DNA from: Halogeometricum sp. S3BR5-2
GTDB taxonomy: Archaea; Halobacteriota; Halobacteria; Halobacteriales; Haloferacaceae
Length of the DNA stretch: 64,000 nucleotides
Reading direction: 5' to 3'
Assembly (NCBI RefSeq): GCF_031624635.1
Contig: NZ_JAMQOQ010000002.1
Span: 620,001 to 684,000, forward strand
This document shows, piece by piece, positions 5,899-23,998 of the stretch. The notes under the pieces are model-generated. The model was not told the origin of the DNA. It searched no databases and worked only from the letters and a program-made list of their open reading frames with translations. The translations under genes were made by a program, and so were the position numbers. How positions within the stretch are numbered: position 1 is the first letter of the stretch; the number at the start of each line of letters is the position of its first letter.

Positions 5899-6669
5899 TC
5901 ACCGCTCCGGTCGCACCGGTTCGAGGCCGCGTTCGTCGGCGCACGCGCGGAGTTCGTCCGCGAGGGGGCCGACGCTCCCGGCGTCGTGGGCGTCCGACCC
6001 GAGCGTGAAGTCGACGCCGCGCGAATCGAGCACCTCGAAGAACTCGGGCGTCGGGTGGAACTCCCCGTAGTCGCGGCGGACCCGTCCGGCGTTCACCTCG
6101 GGCACCGTCCGGGAGTCGGCGAAGGCGTCGGCGACGCGTTCGTACTGTTCTCGGGTCGCGTAACCCCGGAGCGCGGGGTTCCGTTCTATCAGGTCCGGGT
6201 GAGCGGCTATCTCGAACAGCTCCGATTCGACGAGCGAGACGAGTTTCTCGAAGTACGCTTCGACCAAGTCGCGGCGGCGCGACTCGGGGAGGGCGGCGAA
6301 GTGGTCGACGGCGTGGACATTCGCGCCGTCGAGGGCGTGGACGCTCCCGATGGCGTAGTCGAAGTCCGCGTCGGCGAGGAACGAGCGTATCTCGGTCTCG
6401 TGACCGGGTTCGTAGTCCACCTCGGCGGCGTCGAACACGTCGAGGTCGAAATCGCCCCGGAGCGAGTCGATGGCTTCGCGGCGGCGGTCGTACGTCGCGT
6501 CGAAGTTGAACCCGTACTCGCGGCGGAACCGGACGGCCCACTCGGCGGGTAACACCATGCAGTGGTCGGCGAACCCGACGCCGTCGAGTCCGGCCGCCTC
6601 CGCGGCGGCGAGCATCGACCGGAGGTAGTCGCCGTCGGAGTACGTCGAGTGCGTGTGGTAGTCGTACAC
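5899..6669 (-). CDS. PHP-domain phosphoesterase (histidinol-phosphatase type)
   Basis: A metal-dependent phosphoesterase of the PHP superfamily, 256 residues, cytoplasmic. Metal ligands visible are the HTH pair (His5, His7) in YDYHTHSTYSDG, FADH, the Glu in AAEVDYEP, GSVH, AAHPDLI and GSDAHD near the C-terminus, in the order expected for HisK-type histidinol-phosphate phosphatases. Start is GTG at 6669. It could be the histidinol phosphatase of histidine synthesis, but no his genes lie nearby and many PHP proteins act on other phosphomonoesters, so the substrate is open. It converges on the preceding reductase gene with a 37-nt gap. Confidence 0.87.
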   Translation of the reverse strand: MYDYHTHSTYSDGDYLRSMLAAAEAAGLDGVGFADHCMVLPAEWAVRFRREYGFNFDATYDRRREAIDSLRGDFDLDVFDAAEVDYEPGHETEIRSFLADADFDYAIGSVHALDGANVHAVDHFAALPESRRRDLVEAYFEKLVSLVESELFEIAAHPDLIERNPALRGYATREQYERVADAFADSRTVPEVNAGRVRRDYGEFHPTPEFFEVLDSRGVDFTLGSDAHDAGSVGPLADELRACADERGLEPVRPER

Positions 6670-6864
6670 GGTCGTCGGTCGCTACGGCGCCCCGCGGGTA
6701 GTAGCTTCCGTCGCTCGATTCGGCGGCGGCGCCTCCGCACCCGCAGTGTAACGTCCGAAACGGGGAGTTCCGAATCACCTCCCGCGAGCGCCGAAACGTG
6801 GTGAATCTTGGCAATGTATCGGTCGCTCCGAAACGGTTTTGAAGTGCGCTGGCACACAGTCGGT

Positions 6865-8526
6865 ATGCCGAAGGAACCCGAAACCGGGTACGACCCGTCG
6901 CTGGGTCGGAAGTTCATTTTCGTGACGGGAGGCGTGATGTCGGGGCTGGGCAAGGGCATCACCGCCGCGAGCACGGGGCGCCTGCTCTCGAACGCCGGGT
7001 TCGACGTGACCGCGGTGAAGATAGACCCCTACCTGAACGTCGACGCCGGGACGATGAACCCGTACCAGCACGGGGAGGTGTATGTACTGAAAGACGGCGG
7101 CGAGGTGGACCTCGACTTGGGGAACTACGAGCGCTTCCTCGGCGTCGACATGACGTCGGACCACAACGTGACGACGGGGAAGACATACCAGCACGTCATC
7201 CAGAAGGAACGCGCCGGCGACTACCTCGGGAAGACCGTCCAGATAATCCCGCACGTCACCGACGACATCAAGCGACGCGTCCGCGAGGCCGCGGAGGGGT
7301 CCGACGTCTGCATCATCGAGGTGGGGGGTACCGTCGGCGACATCGAGGGGATGCCGTTCCTCGAATCGCTCCGCCAGTTCGCCCACGAGGAGGACGACGG
7401 CGACATTCTCTTCACGCACGTCACCCTCGTCCCCTACTCGAAGAACGGCGAGCAGAAGACGAAGCCGACGCAGCACTCCGTGAAGGAACTGCGGAGCATC
7501 GGCCTGCAACCCGACATCCTCGTCGGTCGCAGTCCGGACAAACTCGACCCGGAGACGAAAGAGAAGATAGCCCTGTTCTGCGACGTGCCCACGGAGGCGG
7601 TGTTCTCGAACCCCGACGTGGAGGACATCTACCACGTCCCGCTGATGGTCGAAGAGGAGGGCCTCGACGAGTACGTGATGGAGCGTCTGAACTTGGAGGA
7701 AGAGGCGCTCCCGCCGGCCGAACGCTCCCAGCGGTGGCGCGAACTCGTCACGCGCGACCGCCAGCAGGAGATAGACGTCGCCCTCGTCGGCAAGTACGAC
7801 CTCGAAGACGCGTACATGTCGGTCAACGAGGCGTTGAAGCACGCGGGCATCGAGACGCGGACGGACGTGAACGTGCTCTGGGTCGACTCCGACGAGATGC
7901 TCGACAGACACACGGACCGGCTGAAGGAGGCCGACGGCGTCGTCGTCCCCGGCGGATTCGGGACGCGCGGCACCGCGGGCAAGATAGAGGCCATCCGCTA
8001 CTGCCGCGAGAACGACGTTCCCTTCCTCGGCCTCTGTCTCGGCTTCCAGATGGCCGTCGTCGAACACGCGCGTCACGTTCTCGGCCACGAAGACGCCCAC
8101 TCCGCCGAACTCGACCCCGACAGCTCCTACCCGGTCATCGACCTCCTGCCCGAGCAGTACGAGACCGAGGAGATGGGCGGGACGATGCGCCTCGGCGCCC
8201 ACGAGACGGACATCTCGGAGGGCTCTCTCGCCGCCCACGTCTACGGCGGCACCGTCTGCACCGAGCGACACCGCCACCGCTACGAGGTGGCGCCCGAGTA
8301 CATCGACGAACTGGAGGACGGCGCGCTGACGTTCTCCGGGCGGGCGAACAACCGGATGGAGATCGTCGAGCGAACCGACCACCCGTACTTCCTCGGCACG
8401 CAGTTCCACCCCGAGTTCCGCTCGCGCCCCGACCGCGCGAGTCCGCCGTTCGTCGGGTTCGTGGAGGCCGTCCTCGGCGAACTGGACGCCCGTGAACTGG
8501 TCGCCGACCGGGAGGTGCAGGCGTAA
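6865..8526 (+). CDS. pyrG: CTP synthase
   Basis: Converts UTP to CTP using ATP and glutamine, the last step of de novo pyrimidine nucleotide synthesis. The 553-residue protein has the synthetase domain ([18 protein letters not shown]-loop, residues 17-33; KIDPYLNVD) and a C-terminal class I glutaminase domain with triad Cys391 (GLCLGFQ), His515 and Glu517 (TQFHPEF). The start MPKEPE is chosen over an in-frame ATG 19 codons upstream because family members begin a few residues before GRKFIFV. It leads an operon: its stop overlaps the start of the GMP synthase gene by one base (TAATG), so CTP and GMP synthesis are translationally coupled. Confidence 0.98.
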
Positions 8527-13438: not shown

Positions 13439-14434
13439 ATGTTCGGACCAATGGGAGGGGAACGAGCGGAGACGAAACCGGCGGGGGAGGAACTGGAACG
13501 GTGGGTCGACCGGAAAGCGGCGGAACTGGACGTCGACCGCGCCGAGGTGGTCGAACGCGCCCTCGCGGCGTACCGCGTACTCGACGCGGGCGGAGACGCA
13601 CTGCGGCGCGACGCCGCCGACGGCGCGGCGTCGGACGGCCTCGAAACCGAACTCGCCGACCTCGGGGCCAGAGTGTCGGACCTCGAAGCCGAACTCGACG
13701 AGAAGGTGACGGACCTCCGAGAGCGGGTCATCCAGGTCAAACGCGAGGCGGACCGGCGCGCGTCGGCGGGCGACGACCGGCCCGACGCCGAAGCGGCGGC
13801 GTCCCCGGGAGCGCACGAGGCCGTCTCGGACCTCGGGGAGTCGCTGTCGACGCTGGAGTCGCGCGTCGAGGCCGGGTTCGAGAACTACGAGGAGGTGCTG
13901 GAGTACCTCGTCGGCGCCGCCGAGGAGAGCGACGAGAAACTCGACGCGGTGGCAACCGCCGTCGTCGACCTGCGGCGGCGGGTCGCAGAACGGGAACGCG
14001 CCGACGCCGAGCGGTCGGCGGCGGCCGAACTCAAGCGGGCGGCGAACCGCGAGGGCGTCGTCCGCGCCGACTGCGAGGCGTGCGGCGAGTCCGTCGCTCT
14101 CGCCCTCTTGGAGGCGCCGTACTGCCCGCACTGCGGGGAGACGTTCGACGGCGTCCGCGCGCGGAGCGGTCTGCTCCCGTTCGGGTCGGCGACCCTCACG
14201 ACGGGTCGCCGGCCGGCGCTGGAAGGGGCGACGGAGACGGCCGACGACCCGACCGAGGCGCCGTTCGCCGACGCGGACGGAAACGCGGTGAACAGCGGGG
14301 AAGCGGACGCCGGGACGGCATCGGAAACGGCGGAGGAGTCGGCGGAATCGGCCGACCGGACCGAGTCGACGGCGCCGGCCGAGTCGGACGCGCCGCGCGA
14401 GGTGGCCGAACCGGCCGAGGCGGGCGGGAACTGA
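13439..14434 (+). CDS. coiled-coil protein with RHH-like N-terminus and zinc ribbon
   Basis: A 331-residue protein of unknown function. Residues 17-50 (ELERWVDRKAAELDVDRAEV and beyond) look like a ribbon-helix-helix or CopG-type segment, residues about 66-195 are heptad-like coiled coil, and residues 212-232 hold a zinc ribbon (CEAC and CPHC). The rest is a disordered acidic Ala/Glu/Ser tail. A DNA-associated or chromatin-associated role is possible from the RHH plus zinc ribbon, but this is inference. An ATG at 13451 would give 327 residues and fits a TATA box better. The next gene begins 3 nt after its stop, so the two are almost surely an operon. Confidence 0.8.
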   Translation: MFGPMGGERAETKPAGEELERWVDRKAAELDVDRAEVVERALAAYRVLDAGGDALRRDAADGAASDGLETELADLGARVSDLEAELDEKVTDLRERVIQVKREADRRASAGDDRPDAEAAASPGAHEAVSDLGESLSTLESRVEAGFENYEEVLEYLVGAAEESDEKLDAVATAVVDLRRRVAERERADAERSAAAELKRAANREGVVRADCEACGESVALALLEAPYCPHCGETFDGVRARSGLLPFGSATLTTGRRPALEGATETADDPTEAPFADADGNAVNSGEADAGTASETAEESAESADRTESTAPAESDAPREVAEPAEAGGN

Positions 14435-14437
14435 CCG

Positions 14438-14899
14438 ATGGGAGACGACACCGACGACCCCCTGTCGGACCTCGCCGGCCGCGTCGGACGGCGGCGCGCG
14501 GAGCGAGCGGAGTCGGACGACGGAGAGTCGCCCGACGCGTCGCCGTTCGAGTCGATGGCCGTCGAGTCGGTGGACCCCGAGACGCTCTGGGCGGAGTTGG
14601 CCGACGCCGATGCTGACGCCGACGCCGCACCCGCCGGCGGCGCCGGTCGCGCCGAAGCGGTCGAGGGCGCGTCGGGGGAGGCCGACCACGTCGTTCCCAA
14701 GCGGTCGTTCTGCCAGTCCTGCCCGCACTTCGCGTCCCCGCCGGCGTTCGCCTGCACCCGCGCGGGCACGGAGATAGTCGAAGTCGTCGACGCCGACCGG
14801 TTCCGGGTGCGGAACTGCCCCGTGGCCCGCGGGGCGGAGGCGGACTCGGACTCGGGGGCGGGGTCGGACCGGGATTCGGACCCGCAGAACCGCCGGTAG
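14438..14899 (+). CDS. conserved Cys-motif protein downstream of zinc-ribbon gene
   Basis: A 153-residue acidic protein with a disordered N-terminal two-thirds and a compact C-terminal Cys4 module: Cys92 and Cys95 (FCQSCPHF), Cys106 (FACTRAG) and Cys127 (RNCPVA). The module probably binds zinc or an iron-sulfur cluster. It starts 3 nt after the preceding coiled-coil zinc-ribbon gene and is followed after 56 nt by transcription factor S, so it sits in a run of three Cys-rich genes. I do not recognise a named family; the pairing with its upstream neighbour suggests a joint function. Confidence 0.78.
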   Translation: MGDDTDDPLSDLAGRVGRRRAERAESDDGESPDASPFESMAVESVDPETLWAELADADADADAAPAGGAGRAEAVEGASGEADHVVPKRSFCQSCPHFASPPAFACTRAGTEIVEVVDADRFRVRNCPVARGAEADSDSGAGSDRDSDPQNRR

Positions 14900-21523: not shown

Positions 21524-22570
21524 CTACTCCTCCAACACCGCGTCCAGCACCTCGTCGGCGTCGAAGCGGACGATGTCCGCGGCGGGCGCGCCGAGTTCCC
21601 CGGCGTAGTCGTCGACGGCCTCGCGGGCCGCCCCGTCGTCGTCCAGATGCGAGGTGTTCAACGCGCCGGCGACGACGCTCCCCTCGTGGACGGGCGCCGA
21701 CAGCGACTCGTAGAGGTCGACGTACTCCGATACCGAAGGAAGCTCGAACGACTCGTAGCCGTGGATGGCCTCGCGGCCCGCCTCGTGGCACAGCACCATC
21801 GCGTCGGGCATCGCGCCGTGGAGGATGCCGCAGGTGACCGCGGAGTAGGCGGGGTGGACGATGCTGCCCTGCCCCTCGACGAACAGCACGTCGTAGTCGT
21901 CGCCGACCTCCAGAATCATCTCTTCGACGGCGCCGGCGGTGAAGTCCGAGACGACGCGGTCGACGGGGTTGCCCCACCCCGATATCATGATCCCCGTCTG
22001 GCCCGTCGGGATGAATCCCGCGTCGACGCCGCGTTCGCGCGCCGCTTCGAGGAGTTCCAAGGAGACGGTCATCTTCCCCACCGAGCAGTCGGTGCCGACG
22101 GTGAGGACGACGTCGGCGTCCACCTCGCCCGCGCGGCCCTGCGACACCGAGAGGTCGTCGTGCGGTCTCCGCACGTCGTTTATGTCGACCCCGTGTTCGG
22201 CGGCGAGGTCGGCGAACTCCTCGTCGTCGTTCAGGAAGTAGTGGAGGCCGGAGATGAGGTCGCAACCGCGTTCGATGGCGGTCCGCACGTCGTCGCGCCA
22301 GGACTCGTCGAACCCGCCGCCGATGGGGGCGATGCCGACGAGGAGGGCGTCCGCCTCGGGGGCGTCGTCCATCGAGGCGACGATGGGCACGTCGGGCAGG
22401 TCCGCGCGGTGGTCCCGCGCGGAGGTGCCGGGGTTGTCTCGGTCGAGGACGGCGACGACGTCGTAGTCGGCGTACTTGAGGACGCCCGTCGCCGTCTTCG
22501 CCCGGTCGGGGAACTTCTCGTGCGCGAGGACGACGACCCGGCGGGAGTCGCCGTCTGCTCCTGTAGTCAT
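21524..22570 (-). CDS. dgcN: D-glutamate N-acetyltransferase (DUF1611 family)
   Basis: A 348-residue DUF1611 protein. It has an N-terminal Rossmann-like domain (RRVVVLAHEKFPDRAKTATG) and a C-terminal P-loop-like domain with VGTDCSVGKMTVSLEL and FIPTGQTGIMISGWG, then EGQGSIVHPAYS. DUF1611 members paired with an enolase-superfamily epimerase have been reported as DgcN, which acetylates D-glutamate with acetyl-CoA. The stop (TAG at 21524-21526) lies one base before the GTG of dgcA. A TATA box stands at leaderless spacing from the ATG at 22570, so the pair forms a two-gene operon. The enzyme assignment comes from family and context. Confidence 0.87.
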   Translation of the reverse strand: MTTGADGDSRRVVVLAHEKFPDRAKTATGVLKYADYDVVAVLDRDNPGTSARDHRADLPDVPIVASMDDAPEADALLVGIAPIGGGFDESWRDDVRTAIERGCDLISGLHYFLNDDEEFADLAAEHGVDINDVRRPHDDLSVSQGRAGEVDADVVLTVGTDCSVGKMTVSLELLEAARERGVDAGFIPTGQTGIMISGWGNPVDRVVSDFTAGAVEEMILEVGDDYDVLFVEGQGSIVHPAYSAVTCGILHGAMPDAMVLCHEAGREAIHGYESFELPSVSEYVDLYESLSAPVHEGSVVAGALNTSHLDDDGAAREAVDDYAGELGAPAADIVRFDADEVLDAVLEE

Positions 22571-22602: not shown

Positions 22603-22707
22603 TCGGGTGGTTCGGCGGGCCGCAGGAGCGACAAATAGGCGCGGCCGCGCCCGTCCGTCTCCCGGCCCCATCGCATAAGCACGCGGCGCCCCGAGAACGT
22701 TACTGAA

Positions 22708-23097
22708 ATGCCGATATCCGTCACATCGAGCGTCCTGGCAGCGGTGTTGAGTTTCCTCGTCGTCGCCGTAGCCACCTACGTCACGACGAGCGTCCTGAGC
22801 GATGGATCGAGCGTGGCGTACTAGCTCGTCACCGCCGCCATCACGTCCGTCGTCTGGTCCGGAGTGACGTACCTGATATCCGGCTTCGTGAGCGTCGACG
22901 GCTACGTGTTGGCGCTCGGACCCGCCCTCGCCGTCGTCGCGTACGTCCTCACGGTCGACCTGCTCTACGAGAAGGGCATCGTGCAGGCCGCCGCCATCTC
23001 GCTCGGCACGTGGACCGTCTCGTTCGCCATCCTCTACGCCGCCGCCTACCTCGGCTACAGTTCGTTCCGAGCGCTCGGCGTGCCTCCGGGACTCTGA
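22708..23097 (+). pseudogene. small membrane-protein gene interrupted by one in-frame TAG
   Basis: An ATG at 22708 opens a frame reading MPISVTSSVLAAVLSFLVVA and onward, reaching an in-frame TAG at codon 39 (22822-22824). The same frame then continues uninterrupted for 90 more sense codons to the TGA at 23097, with membrane-protein content throughout: segments near codons 8-24, 40-58, 67-84 and 92-112. A reinitiated product could start at the ATG at 22864 (77 aa). Codon use on both sides of the TAG is the same, so this looks like one 129-codon gene of four helices broken by a nonsense change, a sequencing error, or less likely a readthrough site. The family is unknown to me. It converges on the Vms1-like gene, 4 nt away. 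Confidence 0.7.
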
Positions 23098-23101
23098 GAC
23101 C

Positions 23102-23998
23102 TCATAATCGGTACAGCCGCGTCGTCCAGAACTCCCGAACCGCCTCCCGAAGCGCCTCTTCCGGTTCGCCCGAGGCATCTACCGTCGCCACCCGGTCGGC
23201 CATCGGTCGGAAGTCGCCGAGCACCGTCCGCTCGCCGAGGACGACGAGTCCGTCGGCGGCGTCCTCGTGCGCCGCCAGCGCCTCCTTCGCCCTGTCGAGG
23301 TGGTTGTCCACCTGTTCGTCGCGCCGGCGCTCGAAGCGCGCCTGCGAGAACCCGCCCTTCGAGTGGGCGTTCATCACGTCCGACTCCACCTCGTCGACGA
23401 GCGTCAGGGAGTCGCCGTCGTAGACGCCGAGGGCGAACAGGTCCGAGCGAACGAGGGCGACGCGGACGGGTTCGGTCGGAGAGAACCACGAGCGCTCCAG
23501 TCGGAACCCCTCGCCCCACTCTGCGAACGGGTCCGGCGGCGTCGGGGCGTCGAGGGCGACGGAGACGACGCCGGCGTCGTCGGTGAGACAGACGCACGGC
23601 GCGGCCCGGCGGACGAGGGCGGCCCTGTCGCCGAACGCCTCGGCCGCGTCGTCTGGCACGTCCTCGCGGACGACGGCGGAGAACGCCCCCTCGGGGCCGG
23701 TGGCGACCGATTCGAGTCGGGAGAGCACCTCCGTCAGGCGCTCCCCGCGGAGGTCCTCGGTCCCGCGGAAGTCGAGTTCCGCCTCCTCGTCGCCGCCGAG
23801 TCTCTCGACTCTGTCCTCCAACTCCGTGACACGGTCTTCGAGGCGGTTGACCTCCTTCTCGGCCCGTTGGCGCTCGCTGGCCGCCTCCGAGCGGCGCTCC
23901 TCCTCGGCCTCGGCGCGGCGTTCGAGGTGTCGCTTCTCCTCCTCTAACTCCTCGATGCGCGCCTTCAGTTCAGCCCGCCCCAGCAACTCGTCCAGCAT
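23102..23998 (-). CDS. Vms1/ANKZF1-type release factor (VLRF1) homologue
   Basis: A 298-residue protein with an N-terminal coiled coil (about residues 8-70) and a C-terminal eRF1-like (VLRF1) domain. The decisive segment is SKGGFSQARFERRR at about residues 213-226: the GGFSQ motif with Gln219 corresponds to the glutamine of eukaryotic Vms1/ANKZF1, which cleaves peptidyl-tRNA on stalled large ribosomal subunits. Archaeal homologues are known by sequence; the role in rescuing stalled nascent chains is inferred from the family. The ATG at 23998 starts directly with the coiled coil. Nothing in the neighbourhood ties it to translation. Confidence 0.85.
   Translation of the reverse strand: MLDELLGRAELKARIEELEEEKRHLERRAEAEEERRSEAASERQRAEKEVNRLEDRVTELEDRVERLGGDEEAELDFRGTEDLRGERLTEVLSRLESVATGPEGAFSAVVREDVPDDAAEAFGDRAALVRRAAPCVCLTDDAGVVSVALDAPTPPDPFAEWGEGFRLERSWFSPTEPVRVALVRSDLFALGVYDGDSLTLVDEVESDVMNAHSKGGFSQARFERRRDEQVDNHLDRAKEALAAHEDAADGLVVLGERTVLGDFRPMADRVATVDASGEPEEALREAVREFWTTRLYRL

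Follow-up and report, generated by a model that had tools for sequence, protein, structure and literature searches.

A 64-kb stretch of the genome of a Halogeometricum species (hereafter, the window) contains a frame that begins with an ATG at position 22708, ends with a TGA at 23097, and comprises 129 codons plus the final TGA. It is interrupted by a sole internal stop, a TAG at codon 39, so that its translation reads 38 residues, the TAG, 90 residues, and the TGA. The locus raises the question of whether a membrane-protein gene has been lost, whether the sequence is wrong at one base, or whether the TAG is translated. The original prediction offered all three options (i.e., nonsense mutation, base-call error, and recoding). 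The alignment of homologues supports the first, the second keeps a low probability, and the third fails the tests made. We conclude that the gene is very probably a young pseudogene, produced by a fresh nonsense mutation in an accessory gene for a four-helix membrane protein. The features of the locus are collected in Table 1.

Table 1. Features of the interrupted gene and its surroundings (positions in the window)
Feature	Position	Strand	Evidence
DUF1611 protein gene, neighbor	21524..22570	-	Pfam PF07755 (6.3e-76), PF17396 (7.1e-29)
TATA-like box (CATAAG) lying 28 nt upstream of the ATG; putative promoter element	22674..22679	+	Sequence
5' part of membrane-protein gene: helix 1 and beginning of helix 2 (codons 1-38)	22708..22821	+	Translation, alignment, model
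In-frame TAG, codon 39	22822..22824	+	Ser in 7 orthologues examined, Ala in 27/27 distant homologues aligned
3' part of membrane-protein gene: remainder of helix 2, helices 3 and 4 (codons 40-129 with the TGA)	22825..23097	+	Translation, alignment, model
VLRF1-like release-factor-family protein gene, neighbor, convergent	23102..23998	-	Pfam PF18859 (6.6e-31)

The alignments show that the frame is a real gene, since all 129 codons, those before and those after the TAG, are matched in three relatives. These orthologues, from Halogeometricum pallidum JCM 14848 (G039; NZ_AOIV01000010.1), a further genome of the genus (G041), and Halobium salinum (G021), are 76, 74, and 67% identical over the entire length and contain no internal stop. 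The open frame with a single TAG was thus borne out by the translation and by relatives aligning on both sides. On a codon score trained on the 64-kb window itself, the frame ranked first of the six both before the TAG (0.135 per codon; next frame, 0.02) and after it (0.469 per codon; next frame, 0.075). The claim that codon use is the same on both sides is only roughly right, however, given the unequal scores and a G+C content at third codon positions of 0.816 before the TAG versus 0.922 after it. When the upstream sequences of four genes were compared, a motif (ATAAG) similar to the TATA-like box was seen at approximately the same distance from the start in the three nearest orthologues.

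A structural model of the H. pallidum orthologue (mean pLDDT, 83.9; pTM, 0.76), for which 30 homologues were aligned and the interrupted protein of the window was left out, contains helices at residues 2 to 30, 36 to 60, 67 to 87, and 91 to 114 and a short helix at 120 to 123. The model agrees with the continuous four-helix pattern that had been read from the sequence. The TAG had been placed in the loop between helices 1 and 2; since helix 2 of the model spans residues 36 to 60, residue 39 lies instead in its first predicted turn, a few residues away. The family of haloarchaeal four-helix membrane proteins to which the gene belongs is uncharacterized. The read-through protein matched no Pfam family up to an E value of 1, and its one match in NCBIfam (PsiE; 10.5 of 145 bits) was far below the cutoff. 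A Pfam search with 12 aligned family members, that of the window included, gave weak matches only: 4 of the 12 showed slight similarity to DUF7473 (PF24285; best E value, 0.014), and the family member for which a cutoff is shown scored 16.2 of 27 bits. We do not claim membership in DUF7473, to which the window protein itself has no match at E values up to 1. A Foldseek search of the PDB with the H. pallidum model yielded 51 matches with E values of ≤10, none of which reached 0.001; the best (3fbz; E value, 2.6) was unusable.

The check that the original prediction had named, an alignment of homologues across the TAG, identified the residue usually found there. Codon 39 encodes serine in all seven of the nearest orthologues examined (six with TCG, one with TCA; 47 to 76% identity to the window protein), namely, the three described above and four from a second search (G423, G463, G258, and G445; the G258 alignment begins at residue 13). 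A separate alignment of 30 homologues, drawn from the 70 other matches of the family search and including the organism's own paralogue, has alanine in this column in 27 sequences and serine in 3, the latter being close orthologues already counted. Since the sequences aligned have serine or alanine in this column, the position takes a small residue, and at the sequence level the TAG is a single base step from TCG, the usual orthologous codon. Among the matches listed, an internal stop is peculiar to the window gene. Among 170 genomes of the family, 57 had a match with an E value of ≤0.001 (the window's own genome and distant paralogues counted), and of the 71 matches listed, the window gene alone carries an internal stop (0/70 in the others); after G039, G041, and G021, identity drops to 37% at the next match. 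A search with the H. pallidum protein against a sample of 392 genomes of the order (E value, ≤1e-12) gave 10 genomes with a match, and again that of the window was the sole one with an internal stop (0/9 in the others); three of these (G333, G397, and G375; 40 to 41% identity) lie outside the codon 39 alignment. The orthologues of H. pallidum and Halobium salinum thus resemble the window gene in full-length collinear homology and differ from it in encoding serine where it has TAG.

The gene is flanked by a DUF1611 gene and a gene for a VLRF1-like protein of the release factor family. The latter is present in all five genomes of the genus (81 to 93% identity in the other four), in all of which it is also close to DUF1611; from its sequence, its product appears to possess an N-terminal coiled coil. 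A passage of one paper treats VLRF1 in connection with Heimdallarchaeota (PMC6514570), and the haloarchaeal member may deserve a look in its own right. The membrane-protein gene adjoins the VLRF1-like gene in three of the five genomes (i.e., its own, G039, and G041). The H. pallidum gene has the same neighbors as the window gene, whereas these are absent from the 12.4 kb compared around the Halobium salinum orthologue. In G041, approximately 2 kb of extra DNA (L083, about 6464 to 8498) separates the membrane-protein gene from DUF1611. The gene is missing from G038, where DUF1611 lies almost directly beside the VLRF1-like gene, and from G040, where a different long frame fills the gap and no remnant was found beside the VLRF1-like gene. 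Neither genome has a close copy elsewhere, only a distant paralogue. Since two of the five genomes lack it, the gene is, as far as genome comparison tells, accessory and dispensable in close relatives. By the same kind of comparison it is fast evolving: it shares 74 to 76% identity with the G039 and G041 orthologues, versus 92 to 93% for the neighboring VLRF1-like and DUF1611 proteins. A paralogue with 35% identity to it is intact in all five genomes and well conserved (83 to 98% identity between species), which makes loss of the window copy plausible; a common function of the two is not implied.

Taken together, the alignments and gene content point to a serine codon that would have become TAG, most simply by one C-to-A change. 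Translation should then stop after 38 residues, and because the remaining one-helix peptide is unlikely to work, the gene would most likely be a young pseudogene. Both the presence of the mutation in the living organism and the absence of a full-length product are inferred. The case resembles young nonsense pseudogenes of prokaryotes in general in its single lesion, the accessory nature of the gene, the retained paralogue, and the intact relatives, and we found nothing in which it differs from them. Since 36 of the 1,161 possible single changes in the intact H. pallidum frame create a stop, it is hardly surprising to meet one isolated nonsense mutation in a genome.

The lesion probably arose recently, because the frame beyond the TAG contains no other stop and no frameshift and the lineage shows no clear relaxed selection, although the changes on which the latter is judged are few. 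Overall pN/pS was 0.42 between the window gene and G039 and 0.45 between it and G041, versus 0.62 between G039 and G041. At codon positions 1 and 2, the window gene (codon 39 left out) has 11 changes unique to its lineage, versus 10 in G039 and 6 in G041; at position 3, the respective counts are 10, 5, and 5. Besides the TAG, the window protein has 10 unique amino acid changes, versus 6 in G039 and 5 in G041, and its synonymous distances to these two (0.37 and 0.34, respectively) are approximately twice the distance between them (0.18). The synonymous distance to G039 is 0.67 before the TAG and 0.27 after it, a difference based on few sites that may reflect recombination or chance. In a rough estimate that assumes a branch dS of 0.2 to 0.3 and an indel share of 8%, the chance of seeing no further lesion is about 0.02 or less if the gene has been neutral for half the branch and 0.29 to 0.44 if for a tenth of it. 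When stops alone are counted, the half-branch value becomes 0.20 to 0.34, so that the bound is weak. The clean frame fits a recent loss; it would also fit continued translation of the full-length protein.

The main alternative is a base-call or consensus error, in which case the living organism would have a sense codon here and an intact gene. In its favor, the TAG differs by a single base from the codon of six of the seven orthologues examined, the frame shows no further damage and no clear relaxed selection, and the genome sequence (4.66 Mb) is a draft consisting of 22 contigs. Against it, consensus errors that affect a single base are uncommon in draft assemblies, and genes of this kind can be dispensed with. 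Moreover, a nonsystematic look at the window revealed no other broken gene. Eight pairs of neighboring open reading frames share a frame in the window; of the five pairs searched against Pfam, three had matches in both halves, to different families in each, and two had none. Two predicted genes on the forward strand (13451 to 14434 and 14438 to 14899) share a frame, are separated by 3 nt, and lack Pfam matches; they may be ordinary neighbors or one interrupted gene. We regard an error at codon 39 as unlikely, and a nonsense mutation remains the preferred reading.

Recoding or readthrough of the TAG, which would yield the full-length 129-residue protein, is very improbable. Like selection on the frame, which shows no clear relaxation, the clean sequence beyond the TAG would suit it, but the TAG at codon 39 is not conserved: no listed relative carries it. 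TAG also serves as an ordinary stop, ending 18 of the 65 genes predicted in the window by a simple codon score. On this tally, which covers the window, TAG is not avoided as a terminator, which speaks against genome-wide reassignment. A structural RNA signal was rejected, since none of three 100-nt stretches folded exceptionally (z scores, -1.01 after the TAG, -1.46 around it, and 0.60). In the genome, the best match to the C-terminal PylS model, the only one used (PylS_Cterm), scored 25.4 bits against a cutoff of 178.15; in a control search, 13 of 14 genomes gave matches and 1 exceeded the cutoff. The genome has 48 Rfam tRNA matches, of which ARAGORN named 46, none with a CUA anticodon (CTA). 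The other two carry intron-like inserts; by manual reading, one is Arg-TCT, and the tRNA sequence printed for the other lacks a CTA triplet. At L081, 51 to 147 (reverse strand), lies a tRNA-like gene that contains an intron-like insert and is not named by ARAGORN. A pattern for CUA tRNAs occurred in nine places (two with the pattern read backwards), four of which overlap tRNAs already named; an ARAGORN scan of four of the remaining five detected no tRNA gene, and the fifth had no locus. The inventory is incomplete, as the expected tRNA for Trp and two for Pro are missing from it, which leaves room for a suppressor tRNA, and tRNA-Pyl is itself atypical. In passages of a review, the archaeal stop readthrough described as demonstrated is that of selenocysteine and pyrrolysine (PMC8211752), and readthrough at this locus, if shown, would be notable in view of these cases. 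With pyrrolysine recoding of UAG in the methylamine methyltransferases of Methanosarcina, as presented there (PMC8211752), the locus shares an in-frame TAG in an archaeal gene; it differs in that the genome has no PylS match above the cutoff and no CUA tRNA found in the incomplete inventory and in that the TAG is not conserved.

We consider it just as doubtful that the locus is a split gene, in which a 38-residue peptide is followed by downstream reinitiation and synthesis of a second membrane protein. An in-frame GTG is present at 22864, and passages of one study report termination-reinitiation in Haloferax volcanii and partial coupling across a 50-bp intergenic region in a synthetic operon of Escherichia coli (PMC6728339). 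This GTG (codon 53), however, is the nearest in-frame start past the TAG, lies 39 nt on, and falls inside helix 2; no in-frame ATG follows the TAG, only GTG or TTG codons. According to the same passages, the H. volcanii gene pairs overlap or sit 1 to 10 nt apart, and reinitiation is expected to fall with distance (PMC6728339). It is extremely unlikely that some readthrough of the TAG occurs, possibly to switch between the full-length membrane protein and the one-helix peptide, and that the VLRF1-like neighbor acts on the stalled product.

By far the simplest reading of this locus is therefore that an accessory gene recently acquired a nonsense mutation, with a base-call error as the main alternative, and it is an ordinary finding. 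That an otherwise undamaged frame surrounds a single TAG is by itself no evidence for recoding. The consequence is one for annotation, of little importance beyond it: this one locus calls either for a label as a probable pseudogene or for a check for a sequencing error.
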